This document shows, one piece after another, positions 9,201 to 64,000 of a DNA stretch of 64,000 bases. The stretch spans positions 37,946,392-38,010,391 of the forward strand of contig CM057142.1 of the NCBI GenBank assembly GCA_029964075.1. The letters are read 5' to 3'. The position numbers and the translations under genes were made by a program. The notes under the pieces are model-generated. The model worked only from the letters and a program-made list of their open reading frames with translations, ran no database searches and had not been told where the DNA came from. How positions within the stretch are numbered: the stretch's first letter is position 1; each line of letters starts with the position of its first letter. The DNA comes from Patiria pectinifera. Taxonomy: Eukaryota; Echinodermata; Asteroidea; Valvatida; Asterinidae.

Positions 9201-12200
9201 TGAAGTGATTTTTCAACAAAGAAACAAATCTAAATTTATGTACAAACAGCTTTAATAGCTCAGCATTAACAAGGCTAGGCTAATAAGGTTGAACAAAATC
9301 ATTGCACATTTATGATTTTTGACTTTGGTCGAGTGGTAAGACATCTGCACTAGAAAGCAGGAGGTTGTGGGTTCGAGTCCCACCTGAGTGATTTTTTCCA
9401 ACTTTCATTCGGGAGGTAACACACTGAGTATACAGTGTTTAAACATCGGTGAAGGGAAAAACCTATAATTTGATTTATATAACCCCAACGCAAAATTCCT
9501 TTTCATAAATACCTTTTCGGTCAAATAAAAATCAAAACTTTTGGGTCCAAAAGTCAAACAAGTCAAAAATTATAAATTTCCAACGATTTTGTTCGACAAT
9601 TTTACTTCATGTTTTTTTCAAAACATCCCTCTTTCTATATTATGGAATGTCCCTCTACAACTCATTACCTTATATGGAGATTGGCACACACGTACTGCGC
9701 AATGTGGCACAGAACGCAGCTGTGCCAGTGTAGTGTGAATTTAGGACTATGAAATACTGACTCACTGGTAGTATTGCGCATGCTTACGTGAGGATTGTGA
9801 ATGTTCAACCAATGAAACAGTAAAAGGCATCAGATTTCATAGGAGGCTAAGTTTCATGGGACACAGAAAAAGTGTTTAAAGACCAGCCAACCGGTCTTTA
9901 TCAACCATTTAAAACCGGCTACGTGACAAGCTCTCGACCAATAGGAATGGGTAAACTGTCTTAGGCATTTATGAGTATCAGATTAAGACCAAGATACTAT
10001 TTACACTGGCAAGACCTACCATGGCCTGCTATGGTTGTACAGTGAAGGGCTGTCATCTCATACTTGCCGTCTTTGGCGGAGACGTCTGCTCCTTTGGCTA
10101 CTAGGATTGGAATGAGGTCATGCAGGCCAGCTCTGCACACAAACAGTGAAATGGTAGAGAGTTGTAGAATCACAAACAAGAGCTTCCATTTCCATATTCA
10201 TTATCTTTTCTGCAAGTGTTTTCTCCAAAAGAATTCTAAAGAGAAAGAGAACTGGTACGGTGGTTTATGGGCCACAAAGTCTATTCGGTTATTAACCCTA
10301 ACCTTGCCAAATTCTCCAACATCCTCTTTGTACGAAATGAGGATTTCGAAAGAGTGAGGCTGAATGGCAAAACTGTGTCACTTGATTTTGGAGGATGCAT
10401 TATAACAAGGTCTTATAACAAGCTGCACCTTGTGTTGTTTATGCTGAGCCATGCATAAATTAGGCCTAGATTATTACTTGAAATCATTCACACTGCTTTG
10501 GGATTTTGTAGGATTGAGGCAGTGGTTACCCTCCAATGAAAAAATTCAAGAAATAACGGAGGATTTGGGAGATTTAAGGCTGTATCCAATTTTTACAGGG
10601 AGGCAGTTGGAGGATTTTGCAGGATTGAGGTGGCATCCTAGCAAAAAAAGCCTAAGGGGTTCGGGTTATTAAAGTTATTTACATACGTTATTTGGTAACA
10701 TTTTTGGTTTGATTAATCAACAATCACTTTGTGAAAATAAAGGCCTCCTTTTAAGAAGGCACAAGAACATGTGCCAAAAATAATTTTCACTTCAAGAATC
10801 CATACACAAAATTCTTCAACAAGGAAATGGTACATGTGCAAGAAGGGATATGTTTGGTTTAAATAATATCAAGGCTAATGTTCTTTAGAAAGCAATTGAA
10901 TATAAGGTATAATACCGGTCATATATTATTATAGTGCATGTATAATGTTGGTTATTTGACGTTCCTTTGTCAGCATCATTTGTGTTTACCAACTGGCTAG
11001 AGAGCATTGTAAAGACATGGCTGCTGAAAAAAATATGTTACATACAAAAAAATTGGACAGTCTTTATTTTTTTATCGTTAAATCTTATGAATCCAAGGTT
11101 TGATGTTATGACAAAAATTATATTGATGCCTTGTTTGAAATTAAACTTAACATCGAGTATTCCGAGCAATCTCAAAAATTTTTTTTTTACAAAATAAGCA
11201 GCTTGATTCTCAAGTTGTATCCAACACTGAAAACATTGGAATTCACAAGCAGTGAGCAATTCTTCATATTGTTTACAGCTTTTACCTAGCAGCCAAAATC
11301 AGTGGGGTTGCCTTGTCACCACGTTTGCTTGCTGTGAACAGGTTCACGTTGGCTCCCGCTTCAATCTGTATATAATAATAATAATAATTACATGTATACA
11401 GCACTTTTTACTAAGATAAAGGCGCTTTACATTATTATTACTCCAGCTCATTGGGCCATTTAAACATTCCAAATACAATCGCAACTCCATGGGGAGTATA
11501 CAGCTTGATGCTGCCATTTCGGCGCAAAGCAGCTACAATCGATCACAATAACCATCTCTGCCCTCACAGGTACCCATTTACTCCTGGGTGGAGAGAAGCA
11601 ATGAGTGACAAAGTGCCTTCCCCATGGGCACATGCCCCATAGCTGAAACCACAACCTGAAGAAATACCCGCAAACTACGAATTCAATGCCCCAGACCACG
11701 AGGCCACGGTACCCCACATGGAGGAACATGTCCGGGCTGCAGCCTTTTAGAAAGACTCTACTACAGAATCTTTACAGATACTGTGGATAGTGCTGCGTTG
11801 CCAACTCCAGTGCACAATTTACAGCTCAGGATAAACCTAGTAGATAAAGCACTATGGGCGGCAACTGGAACTAAGTCAGGATCTTCAGTTGTTATGAGAT
11901 TAAAACGGACGGAAATATATTTGGCACATCTGCTGGAGCAACGGAATATTGTCAATTATAATAGTTTCCTAATCACTGGAGAACATGAAATATTCTTCAT
12001 TTTCATATGTACCCTCTATAATTGTTCCAAACATAAAATTTGTCAATGTGGACACTCTGTGCGCATGCACACTTGGAAAATCAAACTGGCTTGTTTGGGC
12101 AGTGTTGTCACCAATCATGTACCTACCAATAGCTTGGAGCTGTCTTGTCTCTTGTGCAGTATGGCTCGCTGTAGGGGTGTAAAGCCACCTTTATCCAGAA

Positions 12201-40076: not shown

Positions 40077-40407
40077 TTGATTGGTTAAAGTAAATGCTCA
40101 ACCACTAACCAGGCCTGCCATGCCCGTTTTTTCCTTCTTTTTTTTGAATCAAAATGCTACTTTTTATTGACGTAGGCCTAGGCCTAAGTAACATTATATT
40201 AAATTAATTGTTTTCTATATTTTTTTCTAATCCATGGCTTAGACTAGTTCCATAATAAAAAAGGGGGGGGGGGGAGACAGAGGATCATCTGATCATGATG
40301 ACCGCACGGTTGTCGGTTATGCCTCCTTTTTTTCACTGCAATTGTAGGCTGAATCTTCATCGTGGATCATTTTTTACTTCAAGGACCTGTGTAGTGGTTA
40401 TGCCAGG

Positions 40408-41233
40408 GGAAACAGGTCAACTCGTACGCGAACCAACTCGTACGCGAGTCAACTCGTACGCGGATTGGTCAACTCGTACGCGAGTCAACTCGTACGCGAG
40501 CCAACTCGTACGCGTGCCAACTCGTACGCGAGCCAACTCGTACGCGAACCAACTCGTACGCGAACCAACTCGTACGCGGGCTGTTTTAGGAGTGGTTTCG
40601 AGTATTGGGTTGGCATGGTTGGGAAGAATTTGGGAATAGTGTGACGGGTAGTCCGTAGTTCAATGTGTGACCGTTGTGTGTGATTGGGAGTGAACCCGTG
40701 AATGATGATAATAAAGTAACTTTCCGGTGAAATTATATAAAATTCTGATTTTAACAAAAAATAAAACTTGCCCAACCAACCAGCAATTGTACCGCGGCAT
40801 ACACAGGTTACAGCGATTCAATCATGCAATCTGTATACAGTGCGCGGTGCGGCGGGAACCAATCATACTGGTTATCGCGAAGAAAACTTCCCAATCAATC
40901 AAGCGAACTTGTAAAAAAACAAACAAACGCAGAATTCTTCTCTAAAAAATCGCGAATGTAAGTAGCACTGGCAGATTCAAAAATCAACTACATTTAATTT
41001 GAAAATGTCAACCTTTCAGAAAAGGTAAAATTATGCCGACTTACCGTACCGAACCTAATTTCATCTGTCCATGTGAGCTAAACCAATCGTCTAAACTCAC
41101 GCGTACGAGTTGGTCCGCGTACGAGTTGGTCCGCGTACGAGTCGGTCTGCGTACGAGTCGGTTCGCGTACGAATTGACTCGCGTACGAGTTGGTCGCGTA
41201 CGAGTTGGTTCGCGTACGAGTTGACCTGTATTC
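40408..41233. mobile_element. Foldback-type transposon with 16-bp tandem-repeat arms
   Basis: The left arm (40418-40581) holds ten units of CAACTCGTACGCGAAC (variants in the last 3-4 bases, one 4-bp insertion). The right arm (41100-41223) holds eight units of the reverse complement. The outer ends GGAAACAGGTC and the complement of GACCTGTATTC pair. The 8-bp ATGCCAGG flanks both sides (40400-40407, 41234-41241). Foldback elements such as sea urchin TU and Drosophila FB have this architecture. The 0.5 kb centre has no transposase. Confidence 0.85.
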
Positions 41234-41241
41234 ATGCCAGG

Positions 41242-51161: not shown

Positions 51162-52830
51162 ACGAGTCCTTTCACAAGTCTGGTATTAAACAGGGAACCG
51201 TGTACGTGGATGAACATGAATGCTTTTTTGTCGCCATTCACTTGAATGATAATAACTTTGGAATGGGGGGGGGGGGCATTGTGGTGTACTTGTGAAGACT
51301 TGTGAGAACTCGTCATGAACTATGTGTTGGCAACACTATTAGGCCATTTAAAATGTATTTTTCAGTTTTCATCACCCCACGCGACGATTTTCAAGCTCGC
51401 CCCGATTTTGTTTATATTTGTATTTTTTTAATGTGTGTATTTTCTTCAATTAAGTATAGTTTCAGACAAATTTCTTACAAATCCTCGGGCAACTCCGTTT
51501 TTACAACGTGAAGTTTATCAGGTTTTTCTTCGCTTGGCGCATATAAACGCATGCGGCATGCATGAATTACGCGGACACTGGTTTCCACTGCTAGACATGG
51601 CTAGATCAGCAAGAACGATAATGAAAGATGTGGGAGCCAGCGTGGTGCATGTCCGAATCATGCCCAAACAGATTTCGAAGACTCGGACGTAAAAAGATTT
51701 CTGACGCAAACGGCGTTGGAAATGATCGAAACTATCAAAATATTTAACGAAGGACGTTTAATTAACACAACTTGGTCCCTCTTTCTGCATATATATTTTC
51801 TGCTTTCATTACTTTTTTTCTCGGTGTCAATGCTTTTGTTTGTGGTGTTTCAGCGAAGCGCGATTTTCCGTGTGAACGTTGCCGTGAGCAACCGCCGCGG
51901 CGGCGCGGCGGGCCGGTCCACATGGCAGTCCACGCATGATGTTATAGTGCGATACGGACCGTGTTGGCCTGGCATTTCCCCTTCGTAAGTAGTGATGTAA
52001 GCGACTTCAATTTTCCTCTTTTTTAGTGAGTATCGTCGGTCTTCAACTTAAAACCCGTAAACATGGATTCACCTCTTCTAGGTTTAACATTAGTTCCATA
52101 ACATTGGACTTCAGCGCCCTCAAGTCATTTTGGAAGTGAAAATTAAAGTGGAATTTATATAATGTAAATTATGAATTCCCCTCCCGACCGATTTTTTGTT
52201 TAGTCTGAGGATGTAAACGTCAAAAATCATTTTAACCCTCCGACGCAGAAACTAGCCCTTTTGGGGACCCAATTTGGTTAATTACCTTAATAAAAAAAAA
52301 AAAAATTCCAACCAATTCTGGTGATCTTCCATCTAATCCTAGCAAGAGACACCCTCTACGGATATATGCAGTCACCTTTAGTGTGTGACCCCGGGTCAGG
52401 CATATCTGAGCCTGACAACCTGGGCTGCCCATATACATGTACACGTGCACAAAACAAAGTCACTTACGGGTAGCCAAGTGCACGACTTGACCACAGACTA
52501 TGTATACAACATCTGTTTCCTGTCTATGACCTCCTTATTATAGTCTACAGACATGTCGAGATTGTGTACGTATAGATACTGTGTTGTGTAGCCTCAAACC
52601 AAGGCGCTAAATATCTGGGTCCCCGGAGGGACCCCTTACTGTAAGCGTGTTAGTAAATGGGTTTTCTGCGTCGGAGGGTTAAATGGCCTAAACTAAGGTA
52701 TTATTACGTAAGAAATAAGTAAGAATCTTACATGTATATTTAAGGCCAGTCTTATTGAATGCTGACATTTTAATTTTTTTGTTTGTTAATTTTAAATTTA
52801 ATTTTTTTTTTTACTGAAATAAAACATCAA
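51162..52830. other. Intergenic stretch, nothing recognised
   Basis: No supported gene or complete repeat. It contains minisatellite remnants (GAGTCCATCACGAGTCC), a GC-rich patch around 51890-51915 and polyT/A runs. Confidence 0.5.
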
Positions 52831-53001
52831 CAAAACCAACAGTATAAATCAGGCTTATGTCACAGTATGTAAATAAAAAAACATAGTGATGATGACCACG
52901 AAAAAAATGCATACTGCTTTTATTTCACTCTCAGTGCACAGAATAATTATTATGAAAAGCCAATGGACAAAAGACTACATAGATTACTTAATAGTCACGT
53001 C

Positions 53002-53416
53002 CAGCGGCGTAGCTACGGGGGCGTGTTGGGGGGGGGGGGGGCAAGCCCCCTAAAAAACCGCGCCCCCCAGTCGCCCCACTGGAAAACTGGAGAAAAGCAG
53101 TCGTATGAGTTCCCATGATTAGCGGGTTGAACATTAAGTGCCTTTTTCACTTTTTTTGTGTATTTTTCCGCAAAACCTTGTTGTTCGCGAGTGGCTTTTT
53201 ATTTTAACGTCCCGTGGAAAGCGAATAACGCTGGCCATTGTCCAACAACGACCATGATATCGGTTTTGAAATCCGCCCCATGGGAAGATGGTGTTCTCCC
53301 CCCCCCCCTCCACCCCTCTATTTGATTTTACGGATGAAATTGGGCGCCCCTCCATAGTAACATCCAGCCCCGCCCCCTCGCCCCCTGCCAAGGATGAGAT
53401 CCTGGCTACGCCGCTG
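53002..53416. mobile_element. hAT-like MITE, 415 bp, absent from copy B
   Basis: Inverted ends CAGCGGCGTAGC / GCTACGCCGCTG. Flanks GTCACGTC and GTCGTATC differ only by transitions, and the duplicate locus has the unoccupied octamer GTCATATC (60736-60743), so the insertion is supported by an empty site. Confidence 0.85.
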
Positions 53417-56400
53417 GTCGTATCCCGTGCATGACAGAAGCATACAATGAGTTGTAGTGAGTCCATCAAGAGTTAGTCATTGCCTCACGATAATATTTAA
53501 TCACAAGTTTACGCGTCACAACTATAACAAGGGATTAACAGTGACAAAGGAATCTCTTTGTACATCTGTTCGATTTTTGGGTGACAGGGAAAAGATCCAC
53601 TTTTTACAAATTTTGATTGACTATTTGCGTAGCTTGCTTGTGATGGCTCGTGATGACTTGTGATGTCTTGTGACAACTTCATTTCTGCACACTGAGTGAA
53701 TACGATAAGTTTCCAAAAATCTCATGACCCCAATTTCATGTTCGCACAGTGTGTAGTATTGAACTTGAACTGACCTGTAATGTTGAACAGCGCCCTCTGT
53801 CATAAACGTGGAACTAAATGCAGTGTGAATGTTTTCACATTACGTAAAGGTGAAGGTTGACTCTGCTATTTTTCTCTACTAAATTTTATTACCGTTTTGT
53901 TATTAATTGATGCATTTTATTAATTGATATATAATAATGAAACTATTAAATTGCTTGAAGTGGGCGTCCTTTTTTTTTTTTATCTCCCTCCCTATGAGTT
54001 GACCATCTTTTGACATTACCATAGAACAAAATTTTCGAAAGAAGACAATATCGCATCAAGGATAAAAGTAGTTACACAGATCGGATGGCCATTGAAAATT
54101 CAAAAATCGCGGTGGTGGCGGGGAGGACATATGTAGCAAGATATGCGACAGAGGGACCCCCTCCTTTATGTTGGTCATTGTGTTACCAGAATCTCAGGAG
54201 TATCTGGGTGGAGGGGGGGGGGGTAGTAGGTGGCAATAATCTAGGGTGAGTATAGGGTGTAGGGACATGGGGGGGGGGGTACCACTCTGTCACAAATCGT
54301 GCTGGGTTTAGGGAAGGAGAATGGACCTAATTTGACGCTAATGGCACTCTTTTTCCTTTTTCTTTCTTTGCCTTACATCATAAAACCGACAATTTACTTT
54401 TTTTGACAATATTATTCCAAGCCAGGATTATATTTTAGCCAATTCGATCTTTCTTTCTTTCTTTTATCATAAAACTGACAGTTTACTTTTTTTGACAATT
54501 CAAAGCCAGGATAATAATTTAGCCAGTTTGATCTTCCCAAAGTATACGCACAACAACATTTGTACAATTTACAGTTCAGGGGTAAACACTTTCAGTACAT
54601 TAATTAATAAAAACAAATCTATCAGGGATTTATTGATCTTATCCGCATGTTGCATTTTATCATTTAAATTTAAAAAAAAAAGCACAAACGTTTGAGCGTA
54701 ATAATAATAGTGCCTCCCACGGAAGTTTCCTACAGCAAATTAAATTTGCATACGCCCGCTTGATGTGCACCCGCACATTTGAAGTGTCGAGCTGGCTTTA
54801 ATTGTTTCGTCTCTACTTTAATACAATATTATTACAATTCTGTATTATTTATTATAATGAATTAATTAAGCAAAATATAACCAACCTCACGCTAAAATGG
54901 CTTTTTCACCGGAGAGGAACACCCAAAACATGGAAAACCCTCAGTTGGTGCAGAAGTGGCTGTAAAACTGAGGCCGCTGCCTTAAATAACATCTCGATTG
55001 TGCTCATGAATATGCAAATTCGTATGATGAGCATATAAACAAGAAAGGCCCGAAAACCCTCAAAGCAAGCAATACAAGATTTGAAAATCAATTAAAGTTG
55101 AATTGAACACAAGGCCAAGGACGCATTTTAATGATTGCAGTTAAACAGAAAATCTATTACATGTACATGTACTTTGCAATAATTATGCCACCTATTACTA
55201 ATGCCGACACAATGGAAAAAGAAATATTAGACCGGTAAATATGCAAATTCAACTTACAAACACAGCATTGTACTTGTTGTGTTCAACAATTAAGGTATGC
55301 AGAAAACATTATACGTCTGGTGAAAACTTCTTACAAGTAACAGCAGCAGAGGTGGAAAATAAACAGTGACGAAAGCAACTAACACTAGTAACTTAGTAAG
55401 ACACACAAGATATAACGGTCGCAAAACAGAATCTCAAAAAGAACATTATCTGTAACAATGATCGTCTGGGAAAACATTTAATTGCTGTCCAGCCTGCATC
55501 TGCGCTTCGTCTGGCCTATGATACTTTACATATCAAGGACAACCCTTACCATGTCAAAGTCACATAACATTTGGTAAGTTAAGTTCATTGTTAGTATGAA
55601 ATCAATCGAATTCATCATTGATGAGCAGGGGTTCGCTAGAGGGGGGGGGGGCGTTTTGTCTGCAAAATCGTCCTATCGGCAAAATCGTATGAATTATAGA
55701 CTTCCAATTGTCCCTTCCGTTTCTAACGGCGCCCCATAAGTCAAAATGCTGCCCCCCCCCCTCCCGGCAACCAGGAATAAATTCAGGTGTGTATTTGCCT
55801 GCAATTGGGGACCCCCATTGTCCCTCTTTTGTTTGTACTTCTAACTTTTTAGGAAGACCTCCCATATGTTTTGACACGAATCCAAATAGCGGACCTCTCG
55901 GTAATTGGGCACCCTATATTGTCCTCTTGTTCAACGTCCCCAATGCAGAAACAAACTCACACACATCCACGTTTGTTTATGGTGTATAATCGAGGATTTT
56001 ATATTGTTCTTCTTCCCTTTTCCTTTGTTTATACTTTTAACTAGTTATAACTTTTTGGACACAACTCTCATTGGTTTTGTACACGTTTTTCAACCGAGGA
56101 GTCCTCGATTTGGTATCTGTCCTCGATTCATCGATGATGTTGCACGTGTGTGTCCTCGATTTACACCATAAACAAACGCACATAATTATTTACCTTTCAA
56201 TTTTTTCATGATTTCCATGGATGTCCGTTTTCATTTTGCGACGGATAAAAACCCAAAATGCCTCTAAACCTGTTTTCCAGAGAGGGTGAAACCGTGTGCA
56301 AGTCCAGAAAATGTTCACACTTTCTTCACGGTGGACCTATTTTGTTCACAGGTCCACGAACAGTATGCAAAATTAGAGCACACCTTCACACAGTCTAGCG

Positions 56401-56419
56401 ACGCCCGTGTGGAATATAA

Positions 56420-57122
56420 CTACAGAATTGCCTTCATAATGATAGAAATGCCAACCACCAGGAGAGCTGCATAATCGACTCTCAGCCGATTAGAGCCGCC
56501 ATCGGCGTTTTCCGTCAGCACAGCAACGATGCGCACAGGACCGCCACTCCCATCCCCAATTTTCATCGGCAGTGCATAGGCCGTTGCACCTGTGGTCGGC
56601 AACAAGTCCACGTTGGCCACATTCTCCATGCCGAAGATGTTCTCCTTAAGCAGGACCTCGTGAACCGCGAAGTCCACCTGGCTCTGGCCGGACTCGAGAG
56701 AAGCCGAATCAATGCCAACGCCGCTGACTTGTGTGTTATCCACCAGCCAGGTTGCAGCAGCCTTGGAGATCCCTGGAAAATGCAGCAATGAATTGCCATC
56801 TGCGTCTAAGTAGTCATCCTCTCCCGCGTAACCATAATACGCCGACCGGTTGGTCCAATGCGCTCCGTAGCCGGTATAGACGAAAAGCAAAGCGCCGTCG
56901 GGAACTGGTCCGTTGGCAGACACCCAGTCGGTCAGATCAGCTGGTGACAGCTGGTAGTCGGCGTTCGCCGCAGCCTTGGCTGACACGTCCACCCTCACAG
57001 CGGGACCAACGAGGTTCCTGGCAGGGATTTGGTCAACTCGCCATTTGCCTTTTGCCGCGTGCGCTGGGGCGTCCATGTGTGTACCAAAGTGCTCTGCAGT
57101 GGAAAACTTGTTACCTTCCAAC
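56420..57122 (-). CDS. Cyclase-family gene copy A, exon 2 (catalytic domain)
   Basis: Acceptor TTTTGAACAG|G completes Trp70. 703 nt to a TAG at 56422-56420. Carries the metal-binding motif, a YTGYGAHW loop, GVGIDSASLE and the hydrophobic tail. Uninterrupted frame. Confidence 0.88.
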
Positions 57123-59132
57123 CTGTTCAAAACAAAGTAAACTTTTCTTGAAAGGCTAACAACACAAGAAAACTGAACATACATACACTACACTGCAGGT
57201 CCACAAATCGGCATCATTTATAAGAAGGCAAAACTTACAATGGAATGGCTCGTTTGTTCTTATGCATTATTTTTTATTTCCATTCGTGGGGGGAAGCTAT
57301 GAGCTACTTTTGATTCAGTCATTTTAGATTCTCCTCAAACTTTTTTTAGAACCTCGCCCTGTCCTCTTTTGAAAAAGCGCAGCTTTAGGAGAGCCAGAAC
57401 AACAAGTTAATCATGTCATTCGGTTTTAAGCTGTCAGTCACAAGCTATAGAGCTATTGCATACAGCAGCCATCTTTAGGTGTGTTTTGTTATGATAATTC
57501 TACGATGAATGAACGAGAAGTCTATTTTGCGTATTCCGGCTGCATAAAAGGACACACGTCAAAGATTATTGCAGTGCAAATGATTTAATCGAACGAACCG
57601 TGACGAGGAATTCGTTGTTATTGTTAACCCGTGCGAGTTGTTAGTTGAGTTGTAAATTAACTTCTATGTTTGACTTGTGACTGACTCGATTACTAAGGAA
57701 TAAATGTGTGCTTGGCCGGTTTTAAAATAACGCTCTGTTTAAGACCGCGGTTGGAGTCTGGATTCTGATAATTACCCGAGCCGAAAGCGAGGGTAATTAT
57801 CAGCATTCAGACTCCAACCGGTTTTAATCATAGTGTTTAATACCGGCCAAGCGCATATTTAAATCAAAACTTTTCCGTCCAAAAGTCAAGCAAGTCAAAC
57901 ATAATAAATTCCCAACGATTTTGTTCAACAATTTTACTTTATAGTTTCGGGACATCTCTCTAGCTATATTATATTATGTGCAGTCTCACGAGTAGAGTTA
58001 AACAGCTCCCTATGGAGATCAGCGCGTCGCGCGTACTGGGCGATGTGACGCAGAACGCAGCAGTGCCGGTGTATTGTGAATTTAGGACTACACAAATGGT
58101 GGTTTGAGGGGAAGTAGTGGGAATTACTGGTCCTGAGGTGTATGTCAGCTTGACCTACACCGAGGGACCAGTAATTCCAACTATTTTCCAGAAATAAACA
58201 ATGCTGTATTTGTTTTACTACACCTCATAAATACAAGTAGCCTCACTGCCTTTTTAGTAGCCTCACTGTCTTGTCGTTCTTCGTCAGTCAATGACGGAAA
58301 TCTAGTAACGTTACCCGTACTCGTAGACGCCATTGTTGTTTCTGAGCTGCAAAGTTTCGTGTGTCATGGCACCAGGGTTGAAATAGTCTGGTGCCTCAGT
58401 AGTTACAATGACTACAACAACAGACTGGTTCGGTAAAGATTACTAGCCACAGACTACATGTCTACGAACGGGTTCCAGAGGGAATTTTTGGTGCTACCAA
58501 AGAAAATACCGCACGGCAGCGAGCTGGATACTCACCGGGATGACGCCACCTGGGCGCGTATCATTTCCACTTCCCGGACACGCGGCGGAATCGGCCAATG
58601 ACGTGCTCCAATTTGATCATGAATATTTATGAGGTGTAGTAATTATAAATACAGCTTTAATTGTTGCATGTTGTTTCACAACGCAAAATACAGGGTATAA
58701 GCCATATTACCACGCTTCATTGCTAGTAATTTGGCGTTCTCGTTTGCTTAGCACATTATTACAATATTTCGCTAAGCGACGTTTTCTGTAGAATTAAGGT
58801 AGATGGAATGAAATTGAGCACCGGTGTTAATTAACCACGATTTGTTTCTCTTATTGAAGACTGTACGAAGATACCACTCGGTCCTGTCCAGTATTAACTT
58901 AGATGTAGAAGACGATGTCTTACCAAGGCGTGGAAGGCGTTGGTCCTCTCTGGAGTATCGTCAGCTCGAACGGTGTAGATCCCGGCCAACCTAGGGTTGT
59001 TACATTGTCGTACTTGTACGTCATGTCCAGGACTTCACCCTTCTTAAGTGCCGTTGCTAGCCCTGCAGCAAGCACTAACCCTAGCAGGGTCAGATGTGGC
59101 AACATGGTGTGCTTCGGAAGATGTGTAGCCAT
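56420..59132 (-). CDS. Secreted cyclase-family protein (kynurenine formamidase / isatin hydrolase-like), copy A
   Basis: Two exons (58924-59132 and 56420-57122) give 303 residues. Start ATG at 59132 has a good context (ACAATGG); residues 10-28 form a signal peptide (MLPHLTLLGLVLAAGLATAL). The cyclase signature HFGTHMDAPAH is at residues 81-91; known for the family: His81, His85 and Asp87 bind the metal and the last His acts in catalysis. TYKYDNVTTLGWPG in exon 1 also fits the fold. The last ~18 residues (DYAALLVVGISIIMKAIL) are hydrophobic, behind a small polar GGSN stretch. Known: such enzymes hydrolyse a cyclic or formyl amide. Inferred: an extracellular, possibly GPI-anchored, metal-dependent amidohydrolase; the substrate is unknown. 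A close paralogue starts 7.1 kb to the right. Confidence 0.86.
57720..58200. repeat. Intronic hairpins and repeat family R4, copy 2
   Basis: 57750-57823 is a 28-bp-armed hairpin (GGTTGGAGTCTGGATTCTGA against its complement, loop about 14 nt). 57855-58100 matches 9500-9760. 58108-58183 is a second dyad (GGAATTACTGGTCC ... GGACCAGTAATTCC). All within the cyclase intron (57123-58923). Confidence 0.75.
58924..59132 (-). CDS. Cyclase-family gene copy A, exon 1 (signal peptide)
   Basis: 209 nt, ends CCTTG|GTAAGA in phase 2, residues 1-70. Contains the signal peptide and the first strand region KKGEVLDMTYKYDN. Confidence 0.85.
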
Positions 59133-60600: not shown

Positions 60601-60980
60601 TAGGCCTACACAAAACCAACTTTTTAATTGTTTCACAGCATAAATAATAAAGATAGTGATGGCCTACAAAATGGACTGTACTGCTTCATGTTTCACTTTC
60701 AGTGAACAAATTATGAAAAGTCAATGGAAAAAAAAGTCATATCCCGTGTATGACAGAATCGTAAAATTAGCATGTAGTGAGTCGATCAAGAGTTAGCCAT
60801 TGCCTCACAATTCAATCACAAGCCAAACCACTTGTCAAATCACAAGTTTACGTGTCACAAGATTAGTATAACAAGGGATTAACGGTGACAAAGAATTCTG
60901 CTTTGTGTCTATTCGATTTCTTGCGTGACTAGGAGATGTGATCATTTTGATCGACTATTTGCGTAGCTTGTGATGGCTCG

Positions 60981-61497
60981 TCATGACTTGTGATGTCTTG
61001 TGGTAACTTCATTTCTGCACACTGTGTGAATACGATGAGTTTCCGAAAATGTCATGACCCCATTCTATGAAGCCCGGGAAGGGACAGGGTGGAATTTTTT
61101 TTTTGGAGTTTGCTAATTCGTTCGCACGAATTACTAATTCGTTCGCACGAATTACTAATCCGTTCGCACGAATTAGTAATTCGTTCGCACGAATTAGTAA
61201 TTCGTTCGAACGAATTACTAATTCTTGGGAACGAATTAGTAATTCGTGGGAACGAATTAGTAATTCGTTCGAACGAATTAGTAATTCGTTCGAACGAAAT
61301 AGTAATTCGTGCGAACGAATTAGGAATTCGTGCGAACGAATTACTAATTCGTGCGAACGAATTAGGAAATTCCAAAAAAAAATTCCACCCTGTCCCTTCC
61401 CGGGCTTCATAGTCATGACTTGTGATGTCTTGTGGTAACTTAATTTCTGCACACTGAGTGAATACGATGAGTTTCCGAAAATGTCATGACCCCATTC
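60981..61497. repeat. 85-bp direct duplication flanking the 21-bp-repeat foldback
   Basis: 60981-61065 and 61413-61497 are the same 85-bp segment with two differences; copy A has it once (near 53650-53735). The foldback sits exactly between the two. Confidence 0.85.
61065..61412. mobile_element. Palindromic foldback element, 348 bp, with twelve 21-bp repeats
   Basis: Outer arms of 47-49 bp (CTATGAAGCCCGGGAAGGGA ...) are almost perfect inverted repeats. The centre (61114-61365) is twelve units of the type TAATTCGTTCGCACGAATTA plus one base, each unit itself a dyad. Because the unit is 21 bp and stop-free, at least four frames on both strands stay open; no protein is inferred. Absent from copy A. 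Confidence 0.85.
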
Positions 61498-62044
61498 CAT
61501 GTTCGCACAGTGTGCAGAATTGAAGTTGAACTCACCGGTAACGTTGAACAGCGCCCTCTGTCATAAGCTGGGAAATAAATGCAGTGTTAATGTTTTCACA
61601 TTGCCATGTCTCGTAAAGCTGAAGGTTGACTCTGCTATTTTTCTCTGTTAAATTTTATTACCGTTTTTGTTATTAATTGATACATTTTATTAATTGATAA
61701 ATGATGATGAAACTTCAAAGGGGTAAAGTGGGCGTCCTTTATTTGAAAAATCTCCCTTCCTTAATATGACCATGTTTCGATATATTAGCATTGACGGATC
61801 CAGAATGACATTTTGGAAATGCCAAGAAGACGGAAGTTTCCTATACGGAAAAAAAATGAATTTGCCTATGCCCGCTTGATGTGCGCCCGCGCACTTGACA
61901 TGTCGAGCTGGCTTTAATTTTTTCGTCCCTAATTATGCAAACCCAACGGCTTCTGATATTATTATTAATTAATTAAGCAGAATATAACCAACCTCGCGCT
62001 AAAATTGCTTTTTTTTTTCAACAGAGAGGATCACCCCCCCCCCA

Positions 62045-62615
62045 AAAGGATATTATCCGTATCAACCCCAAGACATGTTTGATCACTCATGCATTGGTTA
62101 CCACACTTTTGTGCGTGTTTCTCTTGAAAAGTACATCCGAAAGAGTAGCCTGTGGTTATGCAAAATATTGGAGGCTCTTTGAACCGTGTTAAAAAGTTAT
62201 AGGGCCAAGTTGAAAAGTTAAGGAACCTAGTTTACCTGAAGTTCGGTTTGTCCGATGACTTCGATGAGGTTGCCACCAACTCGTCATCGCTTTCTTCTGA
62301 TGTGAATGAGGAGGAATGGTCATCAGAGGATATTTCTGAACCCCTATCCGCGAAAATTTCGTCGAGAATTTCAGAAGCGTCGGCCATGTCTGGTTTTCTG
62401 GTTGTGGGTTATCGTCCAATCAGAGGCCGATGCCAAAATTGAGGGCGCTATTTACATTTCAGTTGCACGTGTAATTGCCGTGTGCCATTTGGAGCTTTTG
62501 GGAACAACAGAGTATCGAATTTGTGGTACAAAGGGTCACATTGGTAAAGAGACTACATGCCACTTTGAGCACAGGTGGCACTCATGGGGCTGATAGGGTT
62601 ATGTTGGCAGCCTTT
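62045..62615. other. Copy-B-specific insertion of unknown type
   Basis: Between blocks matching 54895-54925 and 54940 onward in copy A, copy B has about 570 bp extra. A short Ser/Asp/Glu-rich open frame (62248-62442) lies inside, but no domain is recognisable and no inverted ends were seen. Confidence 0.45.
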
Positions 62616-63521
62616 GGTACAGAAGTGGCTGGAACACTGAGGCCGCTGCCTTAAATAACATCTTGACTTTGCTCATGAATATGCAAATTCGTATGAGCAT
62701 ACAAACAAGAAAGGCCCGAAAACCCTTGAAGCAAGCAATACACGATTTGAAAATGAACACAAGGCCAAGGACGCATTTCAATGATTGCAGTTGAAAAGAA
62801 AATCTCTCACCTATTACTAATGCCAACACAATGGAAAAAGAAATATTAGGCCTATTACTATATTATTAGTAAATATGCAAATTCAACTTACAAACACAGC
62901 ATTGTACTTGTTTTGTGTTCAACAAGGTATGCAGAAAACATTGTACGTCTGGTGAAAACTTCTCATAAGTAACAGCAGCAGAGGTGGAAAATGAACAGTG
63001 ACGAAAGCAATGGCATTATGGAAAACACTAGTAACTTAGTAAGACACAAGATATAACGGTCGCAAAACAGAATCTCAAAAAGAACATTATCTTCAAACAA
63101 TGATCGTCTGAAAACAATTAATTGTTGTCCAGCCTGCATCTGCGCTTCGTCTGGCCTATTGTACTTTACATAATTATTAAGGACAACATAAACATTAAAG
63201 TAACATAAAATTTGGTAATTTAAGTTCATTGTTAGTATTTGGTAATTTAAGTTCATTGTTAGCATGAAATCAATCCAATTCAATATGGATGGGCATGGGC
63301 GTCGCTAGAGAAGGGAGGGGGAGGCGTTTTGTCTATCTGCACAATTGTCCTGTCGGCAAAATCGTGTGAATAACGCACTTCCCATTCTCCCTTCCGTTTC
63401 TAACGGCGCCCCATAAGACAAATGCCAACCCCCCCGGCAACCAGGAATACATTCTTTGATCATCCCACCCCCCCCCACCACCACCTTCAGATTGGTCTAG
63501 CGACGTCCATGTGGAATGTAA

Positions 63522-64000
63522 CTACAGAATTGCCTTCATGATTATAGAAATGCCAACCATCAGAAGAGCTGCATAATCGACTCTCAGCCGATTGGAGCCG
63601 CCATCGGCGTTTTCCGTCAGCATGGCAATGATGCGCACAGGACCGCCACTCCCATCCCCAATTTTCATCGGCAGTGCATAGGCCGTTGCACCTGTGGTCG
63701 GCAACAAATCAACGTTGGCCACATTCTCCAAACCGAAGATGTTCTCCTTAAGCAGGACCTGGTGAACCTCGAAGCCCAGGCTCGGGCCGTAGTCTAGAGA
63801 AGCCGAGTCAATGCCAACGCCGCTGACTTGTGTGTTATCCACCAGCCAGGTTGCAGCAGCCTCGGAGATCCCTGGAAAATGCAGCAATGAATTGCCATCT
63901 GCGTCTAAGTAGTCATCCTCTCCCGCGTAACCATAATACGCCAGCCGGTTGGTCCAATGCGCTCCGTAGCCGGTATAGACGAAGAGCAAAGCACCGTCGG
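63522..64000 (-). CDS. Secreted cyclase-family protein, copy B (5' part beyond the window)
   Basis: The 3' part of a paralogue of 56420-59132: same stop position in the reading frame (63522-63524) and about 90% or more identical residues. Differences cluster at SLDYGPSLGFEVHQVLL, where copy A has SLESGQSQVDFAVHEVLL, plus FGLENV for FGMENV. GVGIDSASLD and the hydrophobic tail are kept. The metal-binding motif would lie to the right of 64000, so activity cannot be judged. Confidence 0.85.
   Translation of the reverse strand, partial: DGALLFVYTGYGAHWTNRLAYYGYAGEDDYLDADGNSLLHFPGISEAAATWLVDNTQVSGVGIDSASLDYGPSLGFEVHQVLLKENIFGLENVANVDLLPTTGATAYALPMKIGDGSGGPVRIIAMLTENADGGSNRLRVDYAALLMVGISIIMKAIL

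Follow-up and report, generated by a model that had tools for sequence, protein, structure and literature searches.

The question raised by this locus of the sea star Patiria pectinifera (GCA_029964075.1, contig CM057142.1) is how a foldback element whose family duplicates 6 bp of target DNA came to lie between two copies of an 86-bp sequence. The length of the target duplication serves as a criterion in transposon classification and is generally ascribed to the geometry of the transposase. We find that the 86-bp duplication is a real exception to the 6-bp habit of its family, and that it is best explained by known, rare biochemistry, which would to our knowledge be new to this superfamily. 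The analysed stretch of 64,000 nucleotides is here called the window (C14:37946392-38010391), and the features of the locus are given in Table 1.

Table 1. Positions, within the window, of the foldback element, its flanking duplication and the paralogous empty site
Feature	Position	Strand	Remarks
Left copy of the 86-bp duplication	60980..61065		Ends with CCATTC (61060-61065), site R, a typical target hexamer
Foldback element core, TATGAAG...CTTCATA	61066..61411		346 bp; bounds taken from the 6-bp duplications of relatives
Left terminal inverted repeat	61066..61103	+	38 bp, perfect complement of the right end
Array of 12 near-palindromic 21-bp units	61114..61365		Consensus TAATTCGTTCGAACGAATTAG
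Right terminal inverted repeat	61374..61411	-	38 bp
Right copy of the 86-bp duplication	61412..61497		Begins with GTCATG, site L, an atypical edge
Paralogous empty site, copy A	53650..53736		Same sequence once, without the element; end approximate (small indels)

The 346-bp element has the terminal sequences TATGAAGCCCGGG...CCCGGGCTTCATA. An initial sequence-only reading had described twelve self-complementary units within perfect arms of 47 bp. The array, enclosed by the inverted repeat, does contain 12.0 copies of the 21-bp unit, with only 2 of the 12 being exact 20-bp palindromes and the remaining ones nearly palindromic in a by-eye reading of the unit list. The perfect arms are shorter, measuring 38 bp, and inward of them the T runs are unequal (10 versus 9). 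As single-stranded DNA, the element folds almost end to end with -173.5 kcal/mol, against a mean of -44.5 kcal/mol for shuffled sequences (z of -31.3, none of 100 shuffles as good). The 18-base element end matches the window twice, once per strand, and two matches were found in 0 of 100 shuffles. Three stop-to-stop frames of 126, 143 and 183 aa run through the array, and their translations are the repeat itself. Long inverted repeats, internal tandem subrepeats and a high number of copies are all present, as in non-autonomous foldback elements and MITEs.

The two copies of the duplication, with the termini GTCATGAC...CCCCATTC, are flush with the TATG...CATA core on both sides. The long direct repeat noticed at first is therefore there, at 86 bp with 2 mismatches (84 matched bases) and not at 85 bp. 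A tandem paralogue, A, lies about 7 kb upstream of the element, and the paralogous stretches A (window 52830-56901) and B (60610-64000) have pieces that are 69-93% identical; a reading frame with a Pfam Cyclase match (56420-57187, minus strand) overlaps the end of A. The flanking sequence is, as the sequence-only reading stated, single in A; the element is missing there, which is what a target duplication predicts for an empty site. Each 86-bp copy carries one private substitution relative to A, and the B-versus-A differences are common to both copies; the duplication therefore postdates the separation of A and B. The palindrome GTCATGAC, which opens the repeat (60980), recurs 71 bp on, at base 72 of the repeat (61051), and copy A has a one-base difference at both palindrome positions. 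A genome search with the right copy plus its right flank returned the window copy and copy A only, with no second allele or other locus.

To know what the family usually does, we searched the 613.5-Mb assembly (1020 contigs) for element ends and compared the lengths of the flanking repeats, as had been proposed from the sequence. The end is common, at about 340-355 matches per strand: the 34-base end (up to 3 mismatches) gave 355 matches on the plus and 350 on the minus strand, with 0 for the reversed control pattern, and the 27-base core (up to 1 mismatch) gave 346 and 340, respectively. Exact searches for the end gave no match, either with 18 bases against viral contigs or with 22 bases against genome contigs of bacteria and archaea. 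The copies came from 39 regions of the first end search and, additionally, from listed match places. The measured set comprises 79 deduplicated copies with both ends, including that of the window, plus L123 and L124, for which the duplicate check consisted of their different places only, making 81. Excluded before reaching 79 were L002-L007 (alternative cuts of the same places), 14 loci duplicating a place or a segmental copy, and 24 loci listed as unpaired or as having too short a flank; here L012 was lost through an indel in its left end, and L071 and L072 were each split into a counted and an uncounted part. The shorter flank has 250-300 bases in 13 copies and about 130 in L123 and L124, so longer flush repeats would be missed there.

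An exact 6-bp duplication flush with TATG/CATA was found in 52 of the 81 copies (51 of the 79 and one of the two added), and a near-exact one, with 5 of 6 bases, in 10 more, all among the first 79. The match is 4 of 6 bases in 4 copies and 3 or fewer in 15, the window copy among them. The family rule is thus 6 bp, which the window copy breaks with its 86 bp. Flush matches above 6 bp are restricted to the window copy, L104 (65 bp, AT-rich and repetitive) and L042 (6 of 7 bases); in all other copies, longer matches score no better than chance. A long flush duplication of unique DNA occurs only in the window copy, and the 81 copies showed no graded run of lengths in between, whether near 15, near 25 or elsewhere. 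Element lengths range from 135 to 1012 bp, with a median of 437 (including one flanking base per end), since the 21-bp array varies.

Some observations were set aside during this comparison. In L036, an 84-bp repeat is displaced 170 bp into the right flank and 92.9% alike, and the insertion between its copies is an ordinary one. The flush similarity of L104, at best 65 bp, belongs to an AT-rich repetitive stretch (4 of 6 bases; BLAST 80% over 125 bp). A family duplication of 4 bp plus one variable base per side turned out to be simply 6-bp duplications flush with TATG/CATA. The chimerism between left and right inner arms of the window copy is uninformative, because several other copies mix inner-arm types.

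Other rearranged members were seen in the genome. In L083 (G000:C18:114700-119000), whole elements follow one another in tandem, and the repeated spacer between them, of about 62-64 bp, has GTTCTC at its start and end; this is apparently an expansion of element plus flank. Element ends that have an identical outer flank of 40 bases, oppositely oriented, lie about 15 kb apart in L031/L032 (C10:8.141 and 8.126 Mb) and about 210 kb apart in L068/L069 (C13:3.65 and 3.86 Mb); these pairs are inverted duplications that include family members. L106, L114, L119 and L120 are longer relatives with a common inner segment like ACTAACGCGTTCCCGGATCCA adjoining the array.

The window has further features of its own. 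A second foldback-like element (40408-41233) with 16-bp repeat arrays (ACTCGTACGCGAGCCA-like) at both ends is flanked by the 8-bp direct repeat ATGCCAGG (40400-40407 and 41234-41241, by eye), which suggests a superfamily other than that of the 6-bp family. A tRNA-like match at 9326-9383 (Rfam RF00005, 34.4 bits for a gathering score of 29, model positions 8-63 of 71) is perhaps a tRNA-derived SINE, and Pfam matches correspond to cyclase, fibrinogen C-terminal, PAN and ankyrin domains.

Concerning classification, TA..TA termini together with 6-bp target duplications are marks of IS3EU and, mostly, of GingerRoot, according to PMC10045372. The family has TATGAAG..CTTCATA termini, with bounds fixed by the flush duplications in 52 of 81 copies, and its 6-bp duplications (exact in those 52, with 5 of 6 bases in 10 more) agree with the same superfamilies, the window copy being the exception. 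It differs from them in its long inverted repeats with the 21-bp palindromic array and in the one copy with 86 bp. Beside unpaired ends, where frames were inspected by eye, we found no transposase or autonomous parent assignable to the family; there were longer composites and neighbouring frames resembling other mobile elements: L056 has one like a reverse transcriptase, L023 one like a GIY-YIG nuclease, and L122, on its minus strand (26-977), frames like a tyrosine recombinase. As no transposase was found, we call the family IS3EU-like by its structure and not a proven member, and the window element is probably a non-autonomous foldback DNA transposon with putative membership. The family is moderately large, is unmatched to any named family and fits a known kind.

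The two edges of the duplication were also compared as possible targets. A profile was built from the 51 copies with exact duplications and scored against all window positions. It is symmetric, with T avoided at base 1 and A at base 6 of the hexamer, C avoided three bases before it and G three bases after it. Site R, to which the left end is joined, reaches the 98.9th percentile, with 0.94 for both halves, and 6 of 51 real sites score as high in the leave-one-out test. Site L, joined to the right end, stays at the 42.9th percentile, and 3 of 51 real sites are as low. Its left half scores 0.20 (2 of 51 as low), while its right half is ordinary, with 0.73 (16 of 51 as low). Taken alone, the 16 bases that flank the element on its right score 0.85, and the weakness of L is thus confined to its part outside the duplication. 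The contrast points to R as the site chosen by the transposase and to some other route to L, even though it is modest, comes from one site and a post hoc test, and is not uniform.

The reading with the fewest assumptions is an uncoordinated insertion of the IS3EU-like foldback element, which we put forward tentatively, with slightly less than even confidence, as the origin of the 86-bp duplication. The left element end would have joined the host DNA at site R, which is a normal target, and the right end the opposite strand at site L, 86 bp away and not 6 bp, that is, 80 bp upstream of its normal place. Repair synthesis would then have filled the two 86-nt gaps, generating the direct repeat. 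We infer the two separate joinings, the gap filling and the missing transposase; the anatomy, the paralogous empty site, the 6-bp rule and the scores of R and L are direct observations. Since neither a transposase nor an autonomous copy was found, integrase-type chemistry is deduced from the ends and the duplication length. Uncoordinated joining is favoured because both edges are flush with the exact ends defined by relatives, because the 86 bp is single in copy A and was duplicated after A and B had separated, because the family duplicates 6 bp and R scores high where L scores low, and because precedents exist in XMRV, HERV-K and IS481EU. Against it count the single event, with no intermediate lengths in 81 copies, the weak, post hoc and uneven target contrast (given the right half of L and the 16 bases beside the element), and the recurrent palindrome GTCATGAC, for which this model has no need, whereas a repair model could exploit it.

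The main rival, which we consider rather unlikely, is an event with two copies, in which elements or sister-chromatid ends at R and L, 80 bp apart, would have led to a hybrid-element insertion or to an offset allelic crossover. By our own derivation it predicts the order repeat-element-repeat exactly, with both edges flush. Recombined family members exist, namely the composites L010 and L017, without matching duplications, and the tandem array L083, and some of the 15 copies with 3 or fewer matching bases (which include the window copy) could be reciprocal deletion products. According to PMC2775673 and PMC3744419, hybrid-element insertion with flanking rearrangements, duplications as well as deletions, is known for P elements, and a related alternative transposition with duplications is known for Ac. 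The likeness to P elements ends at the need for a second transposase target, since the score of L as a whole is that of random DNA, with an ordinary right half; moreover, the search with the right copy and its flank revealed no element at L alone or at R alone, and no second allele. An origin in break repair, as raised by the sequence-only reading, is retained as an unlikely alternative, while for replication slippage at a cruciform, also raised there, no specific support was found. The element may have inserted normally at R and suffered a break at its right end afterwards, or it may have been excised and then taken up at a break that had long 5' overhangs; in both cases about 80 bp would have been copied from the empty chromatid before end joining. 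Such a patch fits the one-sided target signal as well as uncoordinated joining does, as only R resembles a full target and the L edge may then be a repair edge, possibly helped by the repeated palindrome GTCATGAC with which it coincides. The literature, at the level of titles and abstract openings, recognises duplications associated with breaks and end joining. However, the patch requires the exact joining of an untrimmed element end, and the junction, as read in the sequence, has neither filler bases nor microhomology.

A misassembly, with filled and empty haplotypes joined so that the 86 bp appear twice, is very improbable. Heterozygosity at the level of many marine invertebrates would account for the 2 of 86 bases that differ, and the genome search returned no second allele, but the join must fall exactly at the terminal base of the element, with haplotypes that do not overlap there. 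Hardly credible is an older 86-bp tandem repeat hit at its junction by chance. The short duplications of other copies (6 bp, exact in 52 of 81), which the sequence-only reading had named as the observation that would make the long repeat an older coincidence, are indeed present. They do not have this consequence, because the junction lacks a 6-bp duplication of its own, with the caveat that its loss is possible, given 15 of 81 copies with 3 or fewer matching bases. In addition, the two copies differ at 2 of 86 bases, are younger than the A/B split, and would have been hit with base-exact placement. Since the junction lacks the 6 bp, and since L036, beside its repeated stretch, keeps them, the most likely origin of the duplication is the insertion itself or a subsequent event using the exact element end. 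The original view of a transposon-like foldback with an unusual flanking repeat therefore stands, the repeat having most likely arisen at or with the insertion and being exceptional among the 81 copies.

We regard it as possible, on the doubtful side, that an IS3EU-like transposase can join the two ends at a distance of 86 bp, for instance over a target bent into a loop, making a wide duplication in a single step. If so, a eukaryotic DNA transposon with 6-bp duplications would be added to IS481EU, with its discrete long duplications, and to the retroviruses, with their rare long ones. An exception as wide and clean as this one, whose ends are intact and whose family has a well measured 6-bp rule and a known target preference, tests how strictly the two joinings are coupled, and it also bears on the origin of small tandem duplications in genomes. 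A target duplication of this length had seemed unfamiliar for DNA transposons at first sight. No DNA-transposon duplication of comparable size was found in titles and abstract openings, a search with subscription journals mostly outside its scope, and PMC2869330 contains the phrase 'unusually long target site'; for integrase-made insertions, up to 450 bp are reported.

Among known systems, the Drosophila elements Foldback and Galileo have long and internally repetitive inverted repeats, like those of the window element. Galileo generates 7-bp duplications and belongs to the P superfamily, unlike the present family with its 6 bp. IS481EU, a related superfamily poorly separated from IS3EU in the tree, includes one family with duplications of 4, 15 and 24 bp (PMC10045372), and thus several lengths in one family, as here. 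Its lengths are spaced about one helical turn apart and reach about 25 bp, a series that was not seen here, and its families from H. meleagridis have TGT..ACA ends. The closest parallels in size are retroviral. Against a norm of 4-6 bp, XMRV has a 273-bp duplication at 1 of 15 sites, ascribed by its authors to uncoordinated integration after end deletion (PMC2857682). In HERV-K (HML-2), duplications of 111 and 250 bp were confirmed with known pre-integration sites and estimated ones include lengths from 13 to 450 bp, recombination being also considered by the authors (PMC5488345). These are likewise rare insertions flanked by long duplications; they differ in being retroviral and, in the aberrant XMRV provirus, in having a damaged end, whereas both ends of the window element are intact.
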